A model generated the notes under the pieces. It did not search any database and was not told the origin of the DNA. It saw nothing but the letters and a program-made list of their open reading frames with translations. From Deltaproteobacteria bacterium (lineage in GTDB: Bacteria; Desulfobacterota; GWC2-55-46; DRME01), in the NCBI GenBank assembly GCA_011375175.1, contig DRME01000020.1:1-38679 (forward strand): a stretch of DNA of 38,679 nt. Reading direction: 5' to 3'. Shown piece after piece: positions 108 through 38,679 of this stretch; the stretch's first letter is position 1; each line of letters opens with the position of its first letter. A program made the translations under genes and the position numbers.

Positions 108-311
108 GGAAACTCTGATTAATTACCCTGGGGGAGACTTTCTGTAGAAAGTTTCCCCCCGACCCCCTTCAAAGACTTTTAATTCCCTGCGGATCATCCC
201 GATTTTGCAAGCAAAATCGGGATGATCCGCAGGGCGTTAAAAGTTTTTGGAGGGAGTCTGAGGGAACCTTTTTACAAAAAGGTTCCCTCAGCGCAACAAA
301 TCAGAACTTCC
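108..311. repeat. Palindromic intergenic repeat, copy 1 (central palindrome type 1)
   Basis: A complete 204-bp element. Order: left terminal repeat with CTCTGATT; hairpin A (GGGGGAGACTTTCTG paired with the strand ending GTTTCCCCCC); outer stem strand with CCCTTCAAAGACTTTTAA; a near-perfect central palindrome from about 184 to 234 centred on GATTTTGCAAGCAAAATC; the other stem strand with TTAAAAGTTTTTGGAGGGAG; hairpin B (TGAGGGAACC ... GGTTCCCTCA with a T5/A5 tip); and a right terminal repeat ending CAGAACTTCCC. It lies between ATPase subunits I and K and ends 6 nt before the stop codon of subunit I. Confidence 0.9.
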
Positions 312-2535: not shown

Positions 2536-2756
2536 GGGAAGACTCTGATTAAGTACCCTGGGGGAAACTTTCTGTAGAAAGTTTCCCCCAGACCCCCTTC
2601 AAAGACTTTCAATACGACTTGGTTTCCCCCTGTTTTGCCTGGCAAAACAGGGGGAAACCAGCTCGCATTAAAAGTTTTTGGAGGGAGTCTGAGGGAACCG
2701 GGGGTCTGTGACCCTTTTACAAAAAGGTTCCCTCAGTGCAATAAATCAAAGTTTCC
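2536..2756. repeat. Palindromic intergenic repeat, copy 2 (type 2 centre)
   Basis: Full element with ends GGGAAGACTCTGATT and ATAAATCAAAGTTTCC. Hairpin A is the short form; the central palindrome is type 2, centred on GTTTTGCCTGGCAAAAC; hairpin B carries an extra tip sequence with GGGTCTGTGACCC. The outermost base pairs of the central stem are imperfect here (CTTGG against CCAGC). It lies upstream of the ATPase stalk gene and is the first of two copies in the same orientation. Confidence 0.9.
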
Positions 2757-2900: not shown

Positions 2901-3115
2901 GCAGGGGGGAAACGTGGGCCTGTGGCCCTTCTACAGAGAGTTTCCCCCAGACCCCCTTCAAAGACTTTCAATACGACTTGGTTTCCCCCTGTTTTGCCTG
3001 GCAAAACAGGGGGAAACCAAGTCGCGTTAAAAGTTTTTGGAGGGAGTCTGAGGGAACCGGGGGTCTGTGACCCTTTTACAAAAAGGTTCCCTCAGTGCAA
3101 TCAACCAGAGTCTCC
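2901..3115. repeat. Palindromic intergenic repeat, copy 3 (type 2 centre)
   Basis: Same orientation and centre as copy 2. The left terminal repeat is eroded (no CTCTGATT). Hairpin A has the long tip (GTGGGCCTGTGGCCC) and hairpin B has the GGGTCTGTGACCC tip. The central stem is perfect, with ACTTGG pairing to CCAAGT. It ends about 75 nt before the nadB promoter. Confidence 0.88.
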
Positions 3116-15729: not shown

Positions 15730-15924
15730 ACCTGGAGTGGGCCTATGGCCCTTCTACAGAAAGTTTCCCCCAGACCCCCTTCAAAGACTTTTAATTCCCT
15801 GCGGTTCATCCCGATTTTGCAAGCAAAATCGGGATGAACCGCAGGGCGGTAAAAGTTTTTGGAGGGAGTCTGAGGGAACCTTTTTACAAAAAGGTTCCCT
15901 CAGTGCAATAAATCAGAGCTTCCC
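15730..15924. repeat. Palindromic intergenic repeat, copy 4 (type 1 centre), inside the trp operon
   Basis: Arm A on the left has lost part of its outer strand but keeps GTGGGCCTATGGCCC and AGAAAGTTTCCCCC. The centre is type 1 with GCGGTTCATCCCGA pairing with TCGGGATGAACCGC. Hairpin B and the right terminal repeat (AATCAGAGCTTCCC) are intact. It lies between trpD and trpC. Confidence 0.88.
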
Positions 15925-15940
15925 TAACAACGCACAAGGG

Positions 15941-25051: not shown

Positions 25052-25150
25052 ATGATACGTTGCACTGAGTGTTCTTATAGCCGTGCATGGCAACTTTCCG
25101 ACGGACGCTTTAAGTGTCGTCGTTGCGGCACATGTCTTTTTATGGCATAA
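25052..25150 (+). pseudogene. Zinc-ribbon fragment, probably N-terminus of an IS1595-type transposase
   Basis: A 32-codon open frame from ATG 25052 to TAA 25150. It has C4-x2-C7 and C22-x2-C25 around RAWQLSDGRFKC, the pattern of the DNA-binding zinc ribbon that starts IS1595-family transposases (Cys-x2-Cys, aromatic, xLxDGRxxC). The catalytic DDE part is absent; the frame ends where it runs into the 3' end of the reverse transcriptase gene, overlapping it antiparallel by 11 nt. It is best read as a leftover of an insertion sequence truncated when the island formed. A free-standing 32-residue zinc-ribbon protein is possible but less likely. Confidence 0.5.
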
Positions 25151-27242
25151 GCTTAACGAAGTCTGCATAAGCTGTTCGCAGTTTGGCCACGAACCTGTTT
25201 CTTTCTTGAACCTTGAGATGCCTGCATTTGACAGCTGTCTTCTTTTCGTAGGGATGAGAAACAGGTAAATGGTTCCGACGCATGTTCATTTCCCGGAAGC
25301 AATCCGCCACGGTAGGACATTCCTTAGAAAATGGACCTGACGCGTCCAGCATGACCCCGAAATCCACAAGTTGACCTTTTCGATCGATAGTCTTGCACGC
25401 ACCTGGGTGCCCAGTTCTATTTAAATGTCGTTGTAATGCAAGGAACACAGCATGGTTGAACGAATTCTGGCAAGCCAGCCAGAATGATCTCCCACCATCA
25501 AAGGCGGCCTCAGCTTGCTTGAGTAGGCCAAGAGCATGCACATATTCAGACCCCAATAGGCTATGCCATGACTTACTTCGATGTACTTTGTATCTTGATT
25601 CGAGAATCTCTGCAATCGGGTCCACCTGTCTTCCACGAGTTTGTATCACTCCCAATTCACAGAGGGTATTACATACTTGGGAAGGCAGACCGTCTTTCTT
25701 CAATCCAAAGACATCAAGGGTCAACTTGCGTTCATGAAGTCTCGAACAGATGGATAGACCCGGTTCGAAACTAGAGCGTCGCAGATAATATTCAGCCGCT
25801 TCGCCTTTCGAGAAAGCCCCAACGGGAAGCACCGGAGCCAGTAGTGATTGTAAGATCGGCGACTGGAATTTGAGAAACCGGCTATGCTTCTTTCCCCCCA
25901 CTTCCTCTGAAACACAAAGGAAGTGGCAAGCTCCCCATTTTTCCATCAGGTTTTCGCCCGAGCCCTGTTTCGCAATGGCAATCGCCTTAGTCGTAAGTGC
26001 TCTGATCGCCCTGCGTCCCAGAGTTGTCGGTATCCGACGGTAACGGGCGAGTATATGCCAAGCTTCACCACGCACGTACGGGTACGGGTTGCTCTTCACC
26101 AAATCTAGGCACAAACGCTCTATCGGCTTTCGATAGCCGAACTGACCGAGGTAGGTGAAGAATGCATCCGCATGTTCTGGGTGACGCGGAATCAACTTCA
26201 GAACAAGCTGTAACAAGTTTGTGTCTGGCTCTGCGCGGAAAAGCACATACCGCAGCCGTGTCTTGTCCTCCACTTTATAGGGCTTCCCACCTATAGCAGA
26301 AAAAAACCAACGACGTGCACGGCTCCTGGTCAACTTCTCAGTCCCGGCTTCGTGCTGTGGGTCCGAAATACTGGGCAGCATACCCATAGCTTCATCGATT
26401 TTCTGGGCGCGCTTGATAGCGAACTTGCCCGTTTGTGGGATCAATCCTCTTTCTCTACAACACTTTTCGAGTTCGATGACGTTCTCCCTTATCTCATCTT
26501 CTGACGCTGCAAAGAGTCTCACATCATCCACGTAGCGCATATATCCGCGACGCTTACGCAGGGCAAGGTCAATAGGTAGAAGGAAGCATTCGGCAAGGAA
26601 ATCAGAAGCAATTGGTCCTTGGGGAATGCCATGCCCATGACCTGATGATGCTTTATTTGAGCTCCATGTACGGAGACAAGTGAGAATCAATTTAGTATCG
26701 TCGCTCGTTAAACTTAAACGTGGATAAATGGTTTTAAGTAGCAATTCATGGGAGATAGTATCGTAGAATGCAGCTAAGTCGAAATCTGCGACCCATCGAA
26801 GCCTGGCCTTATAGTTCTTTCGGATTTTACGCTGAAAAGCCCTGTAAGTATCCTGCCACCTTCGAAAAAAGAAGATGCTGTCGGGCTTCTGGAGGATATT
26901 GCTGAAGATAACCTGGAACTGCAACGGAGCCCGTTTTGACTGTAATCGCTTAGCTGCAAGGTTGGCAAACGCCTGAAGAACAATCTGGTCTTCAATGTGG
27001 AGCAGCGCCAGTGGGCGGTGAAGTCCCGATGGTTTCGGAATGTATATTCGTTCAGGGTGCCGCGGCCTGAATGTTCCCCCTATGAGACGCTGTCGAAGAT
27101 CTTTAATATTGTCATCCAACGCTACTTCGTAAGCGTAGTAAAGACTTCGGAAAAACCGTTTATACTGTTGGTTACCGCCAGTGGTGATGCGACGCCAAGC
27201 CAATATGAGATTTGGGCGACTCGCAAGTTGGCTCAGTTTCAA
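25140..27242 (-). CDS. Reverse transcriptase with C-terminal HEPN-like domain (AbiA-like, putative phage defence)
   Basis: 700-aa RNA-directed polymerase. RT motifs in order: ERIYIPKPSGLHRPLALLHI (residues 64-83), motif A DFDLAAFYDTI (153-163), motif B GIPQGPIASDFLAE (205-218), motif C YVDD (237-240), then a thumb-like region. Residues ~330-500 are helical and resemble the HEAT-like repeats of Abi/unknown-group RTs. The C terminus (~560-700) has R656-N-H-L-P-V-S-H663, fitting the R-x4-6-H motif of HEPN RNases, as in lactococcal AbiA. No maturase (X), HNH or retron features are seen. TTG start with AGGAGG five bases upstream. Composition is clearly AT-richer than the neighbours, and truncated genes flank it, so transfer is likely. 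A defence role by abortive infection is inferred from the family. Confidence 0.82.
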   Translation of the reverse strand: MKLSQLASRPNLILAWRRITTGGNQQYKRFFRSLYYAYEVALDDNIKDLRQRLIGGTFRPRHPERIYIPKPSGLHRPLALLHIEDQIVLQAFANLAAKRLQSKRAPLQFQVIFSNILQKPDSIFFFRRWQDTYRAFQRKIRKNYKARLRWVADFDLAAFYDTISHELLLKTIYPRLSLTSDDTKLILTCLRTWSSNKASSGHGHGIPQGPIASDFLAECFLLPIDLALRKRRGYMRYVDDVRLFAASEDEIRENVIELEKCCRERGLIPQTGKFAIKRAQKIDEAMGMLPSISDPQHEAGTEKLTRSRARRWFFSAIGGKPYKVEDKTRLRYVLFRAEPDTNLLQLVLKLIPRHPEHADAFFTYLGQFGYRKPIERLCLDLVKSNPYPYVRGEAWHILARYRRIPTTLGRRAIRALTTKAIAIAKQGSGENLMEKWGACHFLCVSEEVGGKKHSRFLKFQSPILQSLLAPVLPVGAFSKGEAAEYYLRRSSFEPGLSICSRLHERKLTLDVFGLKKDGLPSQVCNTLCELGVIQTRGRQVDPIAEILESRYKVHRSKSWHSLLGSEYVHALGLLKQAEAAFDGGRSFWLACQNSFNHAVFLALQRHLNRTGHPGACKTIDRKGQLVDFGVMLDASGPFSKECPTVADCFREMNMRRNHLPVSHPYEKKTAVKCRHLKVQERNRFVAKLRTAYADFVKLMP

Positions 27243-27701: not shown

Positions 27702-27816
27702 GGGACATTAATTACCCTGAGGGAACTTTTTTGTAAAAGTGTCACAGACCCCCGGTTCCCGCAGATTCCCTCCAAAAACTTTTAATGCAAGTTGGTTTCC
27801 CCCAGGGTAATCAAAG
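27702..27816. repeat. Internally deleted copy of the palindromic repeat
   Basis: Starts with ATTAATTACCCTGAGGGAAC, has hairpin B with a long tip (GTGTCACAGACCCCCGG), the CCCTCCAAAAACTTTTAATG stem strand and the first bases of a type 2 centre (GTTGGTTTCCCCC). It then jumps directly to the right terminus AGGGTAATCA. The rest of the centre, the second stem strand and hairpin A are gone. The deletion joins at GTTTCCCCC, which occurs both in the centre and at the end of hairpin A. Its right end supplies the stop codon region of the lipoprotein gene. Confidence 0.75.
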
Positions 27817-28314: not shown

Positions 28315-28386
28315 GGACGCCACGGACCGGACCCTGAGATTGACACGAAGACGGGCGGCGGCGCACGAAGACGCCGCACTCTCTAT

Positions 28387-28592
28387 GGAAACTATGATTA
28401 ATTACCCTGAGGGAACCTTTTTGTAAAAAGGTTCCCTCAGACTCCCTCCAAAAACTTTTAACGCGAGTTGGTTTCCCCCTGTTTTGCCTGGCAAAACAGG
28501 GGGAAACCAACTCGTATTAAAAGTCTTTGAAGGGGGTCTGGGGGAAACTTTCTACAGAAAGGTTCCCCCAGTGTAATAAATCAGAGCTTCCC
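28387..28592. repeat. Palindromic intergenic repeat, copy 7 (type 2 centre, inverted)
   Basis: Complete element in the opposite orientation to copies 1-4: hairpin B first, then centre, then hairpin A. Hairpins are short-tip forms. The central stem has GAGTTGG pairing with CCAACTC. Ends are GGAAACTATGATT and AATCAGAGCTTCCC. It lies in the divergent region between the lipoprotein and nfu; 28315-28386 and 28593-28696 show nothing else. Confidence 0.9.
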
Positions 28593-28696
28593 TATATTAA
28601 AGCAGAAGTCTCACCGGAAGTCCACGGTTTTCCCCGGCCTTGCCGCCCTCCCCGCGGACAAGGGCGGCGTATATGACCGATGTCATTTATTCCGCC

Positions 28697-30335: not shown

Positions 30336-30539
30336 AGCTTACCTTTCTGAGGGAACCTTTTTGTAAAAAGGTTCCCTCAGACTCCCTCCAAAGACTTTCA
30401 ATGCGACTTGGTTTTCCCCTGTTTTGCCAGGCAAAACAGGGGAAAACCAAGTCGCATTGAAAGTCTTTGAAGGGGGTCTGGGGGAAACGTGGGCCTGTGG
30501 CCCTTCTACAGAAAGTTTCCCCCAGGGTAATCAAATCCC
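30336..30539. repeat. Palindromic intergenic repeat, copy 8 (type 2 centre, inverted)
   Basis: Starts immediately after the ScdA_N stop codon with an eroded left terminus. Hairpin B, the stem strand, a type 2 centre with GGTTTTCCCC pairing with GGGGAAAACC, the second stem strand, and a long-tip hairpin A (GTGGGCCTGTGGCCC) follow, ending GGGTAATCAAATCCC. It lies upstream of mrp within a run of same-strand genes. Confidence 0.88.
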
Positions 30540-30606
30540 TCCGGGGCTTTCGGCGCCGCCGCAGGTGCCGAAAGCTACCGAAGAGGTTTTAAGGAGGTCG
30601 ATTGAA

Positions 30607-35711: not shown

Positions 35712-35917
35712 GGGAACTCTGATTTATTGCACTGAGGGAACCTTTTTGTAAAAAGGTTCCCTCAGACTCCCTCCAAAAACTTTTAATGCGAGTTGGTTTC
35801 CCCCTGTTTTGCCAAAGCAAAACAGGGGGAAACCAACTCGTATTGAAAGTCTTTGAAGGGGGTCTGGGGGAAACTTTCTACAGAAAGTTTCCCCCAGGGT
35901 AATTAATCAGAGCTTCC
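35712..35917. repeat. Palindromic intergenic repeat, copy 10 (type 2 centre, inverted)
   Basis: Complete element between agmatinase and arginine decarboxylase: terminus GGGAACTCTGATTTATTGC, short hairpin B, centre with the variant loop GTTTTGCCAAAGCAAAAC, short hairpin A, terminus AATTAATCAGAGCTTCC. The centre loop differs from other type 2 copies. Confidence 0.9.
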
Positions 35918-38540: not shown

Positions 38541-38679
38541 TCCTGGGGGAAACTTTCTGTAGAAAGTTTCCCCCAGACCCCCTTCAAAGACTTTTAATTC
38601 CCTGCGGATCACCCCGATTTTGCAAGCAAAATCGGGGTGATCCGCAGGGCGTTAAAAGTTTTTGGAGGGAGTCTGAGGG
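38541..38679. repeat. Palindromic intergenic repeat, copy 11 (type 1 centre), cut by the window end
   Basis: Short-tip hairpin A, stem strand, type 1 centre with GCGGATCACCCCGA pairing with TCGGGGTGATCCGC, second stem strand and the first bases of hairpin B (GTCTGAGGG) are present. The left terminus is eroded. Confidence 0.88.

Follow-up and report, generated by a model that had tools for sequence, protein, structure and literature searches.

The window, the whole stretch of 38,679 nt analysed here, holds nine copies of a non-coding element of ~205 bp, including one half copy and one truncated at the contig end. The central hairpins of these copies differ mostly by changes on one arm that are matched on the other. 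In the wider family, we found paired arms, inverted loops, inversions of whole elements and target duplications. These data suggest that each arm of the centre probably serves as template for the other, through fold-back switching at the palindrome tip.

Build, copies and class of the element

The layout of the element is hairpin A, linker, central hairpin, linker and hairpin C, and its two halves are mutually complementary, so that the whole forms one long imperfect palindrome with arms of ~100 nt. The reference copy starts GGAA..CT.TGATT and finishes ATCAGAG.TTCC. In the reference orientation the left linker reads ACTCCCTCCAAAAACTTTTAA and the right linker TTAAAAGTCTTTGAAGGGGGTCT, and hairpin C can also be written GGGGGAAACTTTCTACAGAAAG.TTCCCCC. 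Because the two linkers differ at a few fixed positions, the orientation of an element can be read from them (Table 1). The copy at 2543..2756 has a short additional hairpin within hairpin A.

Table 1. Copies of the element in the window, their parts, and centres of the third type.
Feature	Position	Strand	Remarks
Complete element, type 1 centre, in which the paired changes were first noticed	108..311	-	reversed relative to reference copy 28387-28591
Central hairpin, left arm CCCTGCGGATCATCCCGATTTTGC	185..208		copy 108..311
Central loop AA	209..210		copy 108..311; AA about as frequent as TT across type 1 copies
Central hairpin, right arm GCAAAATCGGGATGATCCGCAGGG	211..234		copy 108..311
Element, type 2 centre, two unpaired stem differences (GACTTGG vs CCAGCTC)	2543..2756	-	approximate ends
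Element, type 2 centre, fully paired stem	2926..3115	-	approximate ends
Element, type 1 centre GCGGTTC../..GAACCGC	15739..15926	-	approximate ends
Half copy, reduced to hairpin A, left linker and left arm	27707..27814	+	
Complete element, type 2, reference orientation	28387..28591	+	target duplication CTAT 28383-28386 / 28592-28595
Hairpin A of reference copy, CTGAGGGAACCTTTTTGTAAAAAGGTTCCCTCAG	28407..28440	+	
Hairpin C of reference copy, GGGGGAAACTTTCTACAGAAAGGTTCCCCCAG	28540..28572	+	approximate ends
Element, type 2 centre GGTTTTCCCC/GGGGAAAACC	30337..30545	+	approximate ends
Complete element, type 2 centre, loop longer by one base	35712..35917	+	
Element, type 1 centre GCGGATCACC../..GGTGATCCGC, truncated by contig end	38523..38679	-	
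Third-type centres	L064 11220; L071 980 and 4399; L104 12709; L119 12161		

The source genome, that of a groundwater bacterium of Deltaproteobacteria type, is a 2.49-Mb MAG in 138 contigs, of which 1.29 Mb (52%) were analysed, plus extra loci. The 1.29 Mb contain 156 element cores, which corresponds to ~300 copies genome-wide, and 5 of 151 copies fall within long ORFs. Five of the 156 cores have a third, non-palindromic type of centre. These centres, of 67-68 nt (TTGTTTGCTC.TCGAGCCGCGTTGG..), are not near-perfect palindromes and lie inside otherwise normal elements.

Terminal inverted repeats are present (GGAAGCTCTGAT..ATCAGAGCTTCC), with IS5-like ends (GGAAGCTCTGATTTATT). Of 39 clean copies, 15 had a perfect 4-bp target duplication (consensus YTAR), compared to a mean of 2.2 and a maximum of 7 after shuffling. 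Members of the IS5 group have ends that begin with GG, inverted repeats and a 4-bp YTAR target duplication, and we take the ends and duplication of the element to match the look of an IS5-type MITE. Judged from these features, the element is probably non-autonomous and MITE-like, with IS5-like ends. We say only "MITE-like" because no autonomous partner with the same ends was found: a profile search of four genomes, that of the window and three others, detected no DDE_Tnp_1 (PF01609), and self-comparison of the 1.29 Mb yielded no multi-copy longer element, since all repeats were either the short element itself or genes in tandem or paralogous to each other.

Other identities were considered and rejected. 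A REP/BIME (RAYT) identity does not fit, as no Y1 transposase (PF01797, RAYT) was detected in the window's genome and the unit is ~205 bp with three hairpins, as opposed to 20-40 nt and GTAG-tagged. A known structured RNA was rejected because no Rfam family scored above the gathering threshold in the window; long relatives gave weak miRNA-like noise only. A role as terminator or strand-specific RNA was rejected on gene orientation, which was 22:19 for elements relative to co-directional neighbour genes, with no clear bias among gap classes (long ORFs served as a crude set of genes).

Beside the half copy lies a gene (25140-27242, minus strand) for a 700-aa reverse transcriptase. Its best PADLOC match, RT_UG19 (1.5e-152), is full length, and on this basis we regard the protein as a candidate defence reverse transcriptase of unknown group. 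Just downstream of this gene, a short open stretch at 25054-25150 (plus strand) looks like the beginning of a transposase, with its zinc ribbon (MIRCTECSYSRAWQLSDGRFKCRRCG..), and breaks off after ~30 codons.

Paired changes and loop inversion in the centre

The sequence-only reading had claimed that differences between copies are matched on the other arm of the centre, and the paired centres that it quoted are all present in the window. For type 1, these are GCGGATCATCCCGA/TCGGGATGATCCGC at 181-240, GCGGTTC../..GAACCGC at 15790-15850 and GCGGATCACC../..GGTGATCCGC at 38594-38656. For type 2, they are GGTTTTCCCC/GGGGAAAACC at 30398-30461 and ACTTGG/CCAAGT (2969-3031) versus AGTTGG/CCAACT (28458 and 35783). 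One exception had gone unquoted: in the copy at 2583-2697 (centre near 2640), GACTTGG on the left faces CCAGCTC on the right, with two unpaired differences. Across the genomic copies, the stems were found to covary. Counted over distinct haplotypes and 24 stem pairs, with 500 shuffles per type, type 1 showed 22 double changes, against a mean of 5.1 and a maximum of 10 in the shuffles, and type 2 showed 10, against a mean of 2.5 and a maximum of 6.

The same reading had named, as evidence against itself, a genome in which unpaired changes are as common as paired ones. Among variants private to one copy, as judged from ~52% of the genome and some additional loci, 12 were paired and 22 unpaired, so that unpaired changes were not the rarer class. 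We consider this comparison to be the wrong null, since arms that mutate independently should yield well below one paired private change; with 22 unpaired changes per ~6,400 arm bases, we estimate a chance expectation of ~0.01. Seven of the 11 copies with a private paired change show no other difference in ~62 outer bases, but only 1 of the 13 with a private unpaired change is pristine there (one-sided Fisher ~0.006, calculated by hand). Some mirrored changes are 1-nt deletions (e.g., GGACATCC/GGATGTCC), and transversions account for about half of the paired variants. Mismatch variants comprise ~10 G-T versus 15 C-A and hence display no G-U preference. Unpaired variants are mostly singletons, some paired variants are common to 11-21 copies, and old copies retain unpaired changes.

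The central loops were found in both orientations. Type 1 loops read TT or AA at a ratio of 27:21 (54 copies), and both forms occur within single paired haplotypes: 7:8 for GATCATCCCGA, 9:7 for GATCACCCCGA, 4:6 for GTTCATCCCGA and 1:1 for GTTCCTCCCGA. The common paired haplotypes of type 2 likewise contain both forms, with CTG in 25 copies and CAG in 18, and CAA in 15 and TTG in 5; of a rare paired haplotype, one copy has the loop TCC and one has GGA. The paired loop forms are exact reverse complements, with intermediate point variants rare, and in one case the whole centre, including an asymmetric base, is inverted (TAATTCCC..GGGCGTT). The outer hairpin loops are nearly fixed, with TACA in 110 copies and TGTA in 2 for hairpin C, while hairpin A keeps TGT.

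Relatives and orthologous sites

Among 39 genomes that belong to the same order, 22 contain the element, and carriers of the GAGAG form include the Deltaproteobacteria MAGs GWA2_54_12, UBA5799 and NC_groundwater isolates. Between families, one outer hairpin with its linker is 96-98% identical over ~54 nt; the centre is not conserved. An edit-distance search of the relatives gave 102 cores, of which 89 had a stem and 60 the shared TTCC base; several of the omitted cores have the short-hairpin form. The 60 copies with the TTCC base carry 47 distinct left arms. Left arms differ by 29.6% per site between copies, whereas mismatch between the arms of one copy is 2.1%, a rate biased downwards because stems were picked by palindrome score. 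No mismatch was found in 600 cells at stem positions 0-9 of the relatives. At positions 4-11, 97.5% of cells pair, compared to 68% (maximum 76%) when right arms were permuted within genomes in 2,000 trials. At the same loci, within-copy mismatch reaches 4.7% in hairpin A and 8.3% in hairpin C, against 1.8% in the centre, which makes the centre the best-paired part, and mismatched forms of hairpins A and C are common to 14 and 9 copies, respectively. Sequence is conserved throughout the order in the outer parts; in the centre, only self-complementarity is.

Longer versions of the element (L203, L205, L206, L233, L270, L176 and L180) have two extra structured arms in hairpins A and C, X = GCCGTTGGATGC..GCATCCATCGGAC and Y = CAACTGAGATTGC..CGCAATCCCAG, which match no Rfam family. 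Elements at L325, L327, L329, L333 and L163 (G026 and a relative) have central loops of ~55-60 nt, compared to the usual 2-7 nt, and some of these loops are mutually similar.

Flank matching gave 29 ortholog pairs at 18 sites, with flank identity of ~80-94%. Sixteen pairs had opposite and 13 the same orientation (pairs within a site are not independent), and both orientations of the whole element were present at 11 of the 18 sites, counted by hand. At L168 (G009) and L257 (G035), from two species, the stem is the same and the 7-nt loop GGAAGCT of one is the exact reverse complement of AGCTTCC in the other; the element sequences compared match in all other respects, save that one G is missing at the tip. 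The stems of other orthologs differ by several paired changes, for instance TGAGCGGA versus TGAGAAAA (L151/L260), TGAGCGTA versus TGAGAGAA (L173/L199) and TGAGGAAG versus TGAGAAAG (L171/L261), and such paired changes were seen across species with ~6-20% flank divergence. At L172/L208 and L176/L255, a small version is swapped for a larger one with extra stems. Since element versions are exchanged between copies at some orthologous sites, some inversions could be replacements.

Origin of the paired changes and comparison with known systems

The sequence-only reading had left a choice between selection for the structure and copying of one arm from the other. If copying operates, a point mutation confined to one arm would be erased or mirrored by a fold-back template switch at the palindrome tip, during replication or repair; switching across the loop would invert the loop, and a longer exchange would invert the whole element. 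The paired differences would then be mainly a product of template switching. Such switching between the arms of inverted repeats yields matched arms and inverted spacers (PMC8604942), and inverted loops have been described as the strongest support for the template-switch model in rRNA genes, where they are rare (PMC8794818). Matched arms and inverted loops are both common in the present family. The copying branch is supported by loops near 50:50 in several paired backgrounds and by the loop inversion at L168/L257. It also gains from the sites with inverted elements, from private paired changes on otherwise unmutated copies, from the mirrored 1-nt deletions and from the missing G-U preference. 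Against it count the unpaired changes retained by old copies, the flawless pairing at positions 0-9, which selection would give as well, and the exchanges at L172/L208 and L176/L255, which are replacements by another version.

The selection branch retains some weight in the contrast between the outer hairpins, which hold their loop orientation (110:2) and spread in mismatched form, and the centre, which does neither. This contrast calls for switching that is specific to the tip, or for selection. Switching is not general to every hairpin, because the loops of hairpins A and C hardly invert and mismatched outer hairpins occur in 9-14 copies. The low flipping of the outer hairpins and the asymmetric linkers would fit tip-nucleated switching together with sequence selection on the outer parts, and transposition may in addition select for copies whose centre is paired. 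As the main cause, however, selection seems unlikely to us. On this view, transposition or a host function would depend on a hairpin or cruciform formed by the DNA of the centre, or on an RNA from it; copies would spread only if paired, and compensating changes would be favoured. The centre is indeed the best-paired part (1.8% mismatch within copies, against the higher rates of hairpins A and C), unpaired variants are mostly singletons while certain paired ones are widespread, and the outer parts are plainly under sequence constraint order-wide. Yet selection on structure predicts neither 50:50 loop inversion nor inverted elements, and the lack of G-U preference, the half share of transversions, the unbiased gene orientation and the lack of an Rfam family speak against it. 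Selection at the RNA level is disfavoured because it would predict G-U intermediates and a preferred strand.

We consider it improbable that the differences were only inherited from a few ancient founders, which were already perfect palindromes with sequences of their own, and that gene conversion then moved them among loci. The type 1 and type 2 centres and the small and large versions do look like separate founders, and versions are exchanged at orthologous sites, but this account leaves unexplained the paired differences among the founders themselves, the private paired changes on pristine copies and the loop inversion inside several haplotypes. Least credible of all is an assembly artefact, in which short-read graphs fold palindromes, equalise arms and make loop orientation arbitrary. 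The genome is a MAG of 138 contigs, many of which end inside an element, and orientation is ambiguous in a graph whose words do not exceed the 24-bp arms in length; however, the centre and the asymmetric linker bases fit within one read, and the paired variants differ from copy to copy, which collapse would erase. Moreover, G009, in which the inverted loop has its ortholog, was assembled as one contig of 2.75 Mb, and perfect arms there measure ~17 bp.

For fold-back copying, the complement of nucleases in the order may matter. SbcCD is a nuclease that cuts long palindromes, SbcD being a hairpin nuclease. With one model (TIGR00619), SbcD scored above the cut-off in 0 of 24 genomes of the order and in 13 of 14 control genomes, and SbcCD thus seems to be missing from the order. 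Its absence would be permissive and not causal, since it holds in element-poor genomes too. We infer that template switching is the molecular step, that it is restricted to the tip and that the lack of SbcCD permits it. More tentatively, and as a picture that we hold at slightly less than even, an order without recognisable SbcD would harbour a family of long palindromic mobile elements with a very high rate of fold-back copying. Frequent flips of loops, centres and whole elements would make orientation near random, stems would change in mirrored pairs with no selection on structure, and insertions would persist at orthologous sites across species. An order-wide loss of this palindrome nuclease would be noteworthy, if true.

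Stem covariation is routinely taken as proof of a selected structure. Because it is accompanied here by inverted loops and inverted elements, which selection for structure does not predict, the family may be a counter-example and a calibration set for covariation tests. With many copies, young and old, and with orthologous sites, it can be measured directly how often changes are mirrored as opposed to one-sided and how fast flipping occurs. The share of compensatory mutations that arise by template switching, as opposed to two-step selection, is an open question, and our results suggest that the family is a natural test bed for the origin of such "compensatory" mutations. If the fold-back copying reading is true, the family constitutes a natural many-locus record of compensatory change by mutation and not by selection. 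Neither the element family nor the scale of flipping was found in the literature searched; the mechanism is already known, but the family and the scale appear to be new.

The element shares GG-start ends, inverted repeats and the 4-bp YTAR duplication with IS5-group MITEs, and differs from them in the lack of DDE_Tnp_1 in its genome, its triple-hairpin palindrome and a centre that is self-complementary but free in sequence. REP, BIME and REPIN sequences with RAYT (PMC2817692, PMC3116915) are likewise dispersed intergenic palindromes of high copy number, but the present element is much longer and has target duplications, and the genome of the window lacks a detected Y1 transposase. Small inversions in non-coding chloroplast hairpins (reviewed in PMC3123225) similarly flip loops recurrently between conserved stems, although those stems are not hypervariable and paired as they are here. 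In the coding palindromes of Nematomorpha mitochondria (PMC6649704), arms are also perfect or absent, their identity is apparently kept by copying and a parasitic character has been suggested; those palindromes are internal to genes, whereas ours form a dispersed mobile family. Arm homogenisation and spacer inversion at inverted repeats of yeast genes (PMC8604942), like the quasipalindrome mutations of E. coli (PMC7202029), show the same matched arms, inverted spacers and reversible inversions, but concern isolated short repeats, as compared to hundreds of dispersed copies. The hairpin-making template switches of Monttinen and Loytynoja 2022 (PMC8794818) likewise produce compensatory changes without two-step selection, with the inverted loop as key signature. 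Loop inversion is very rare in the rRNA genes that they describe (6 with a compensatory change, 69 alone), whereas in the mobile DNA element reported here loop orientation is near random and whole elements are inverted as well.
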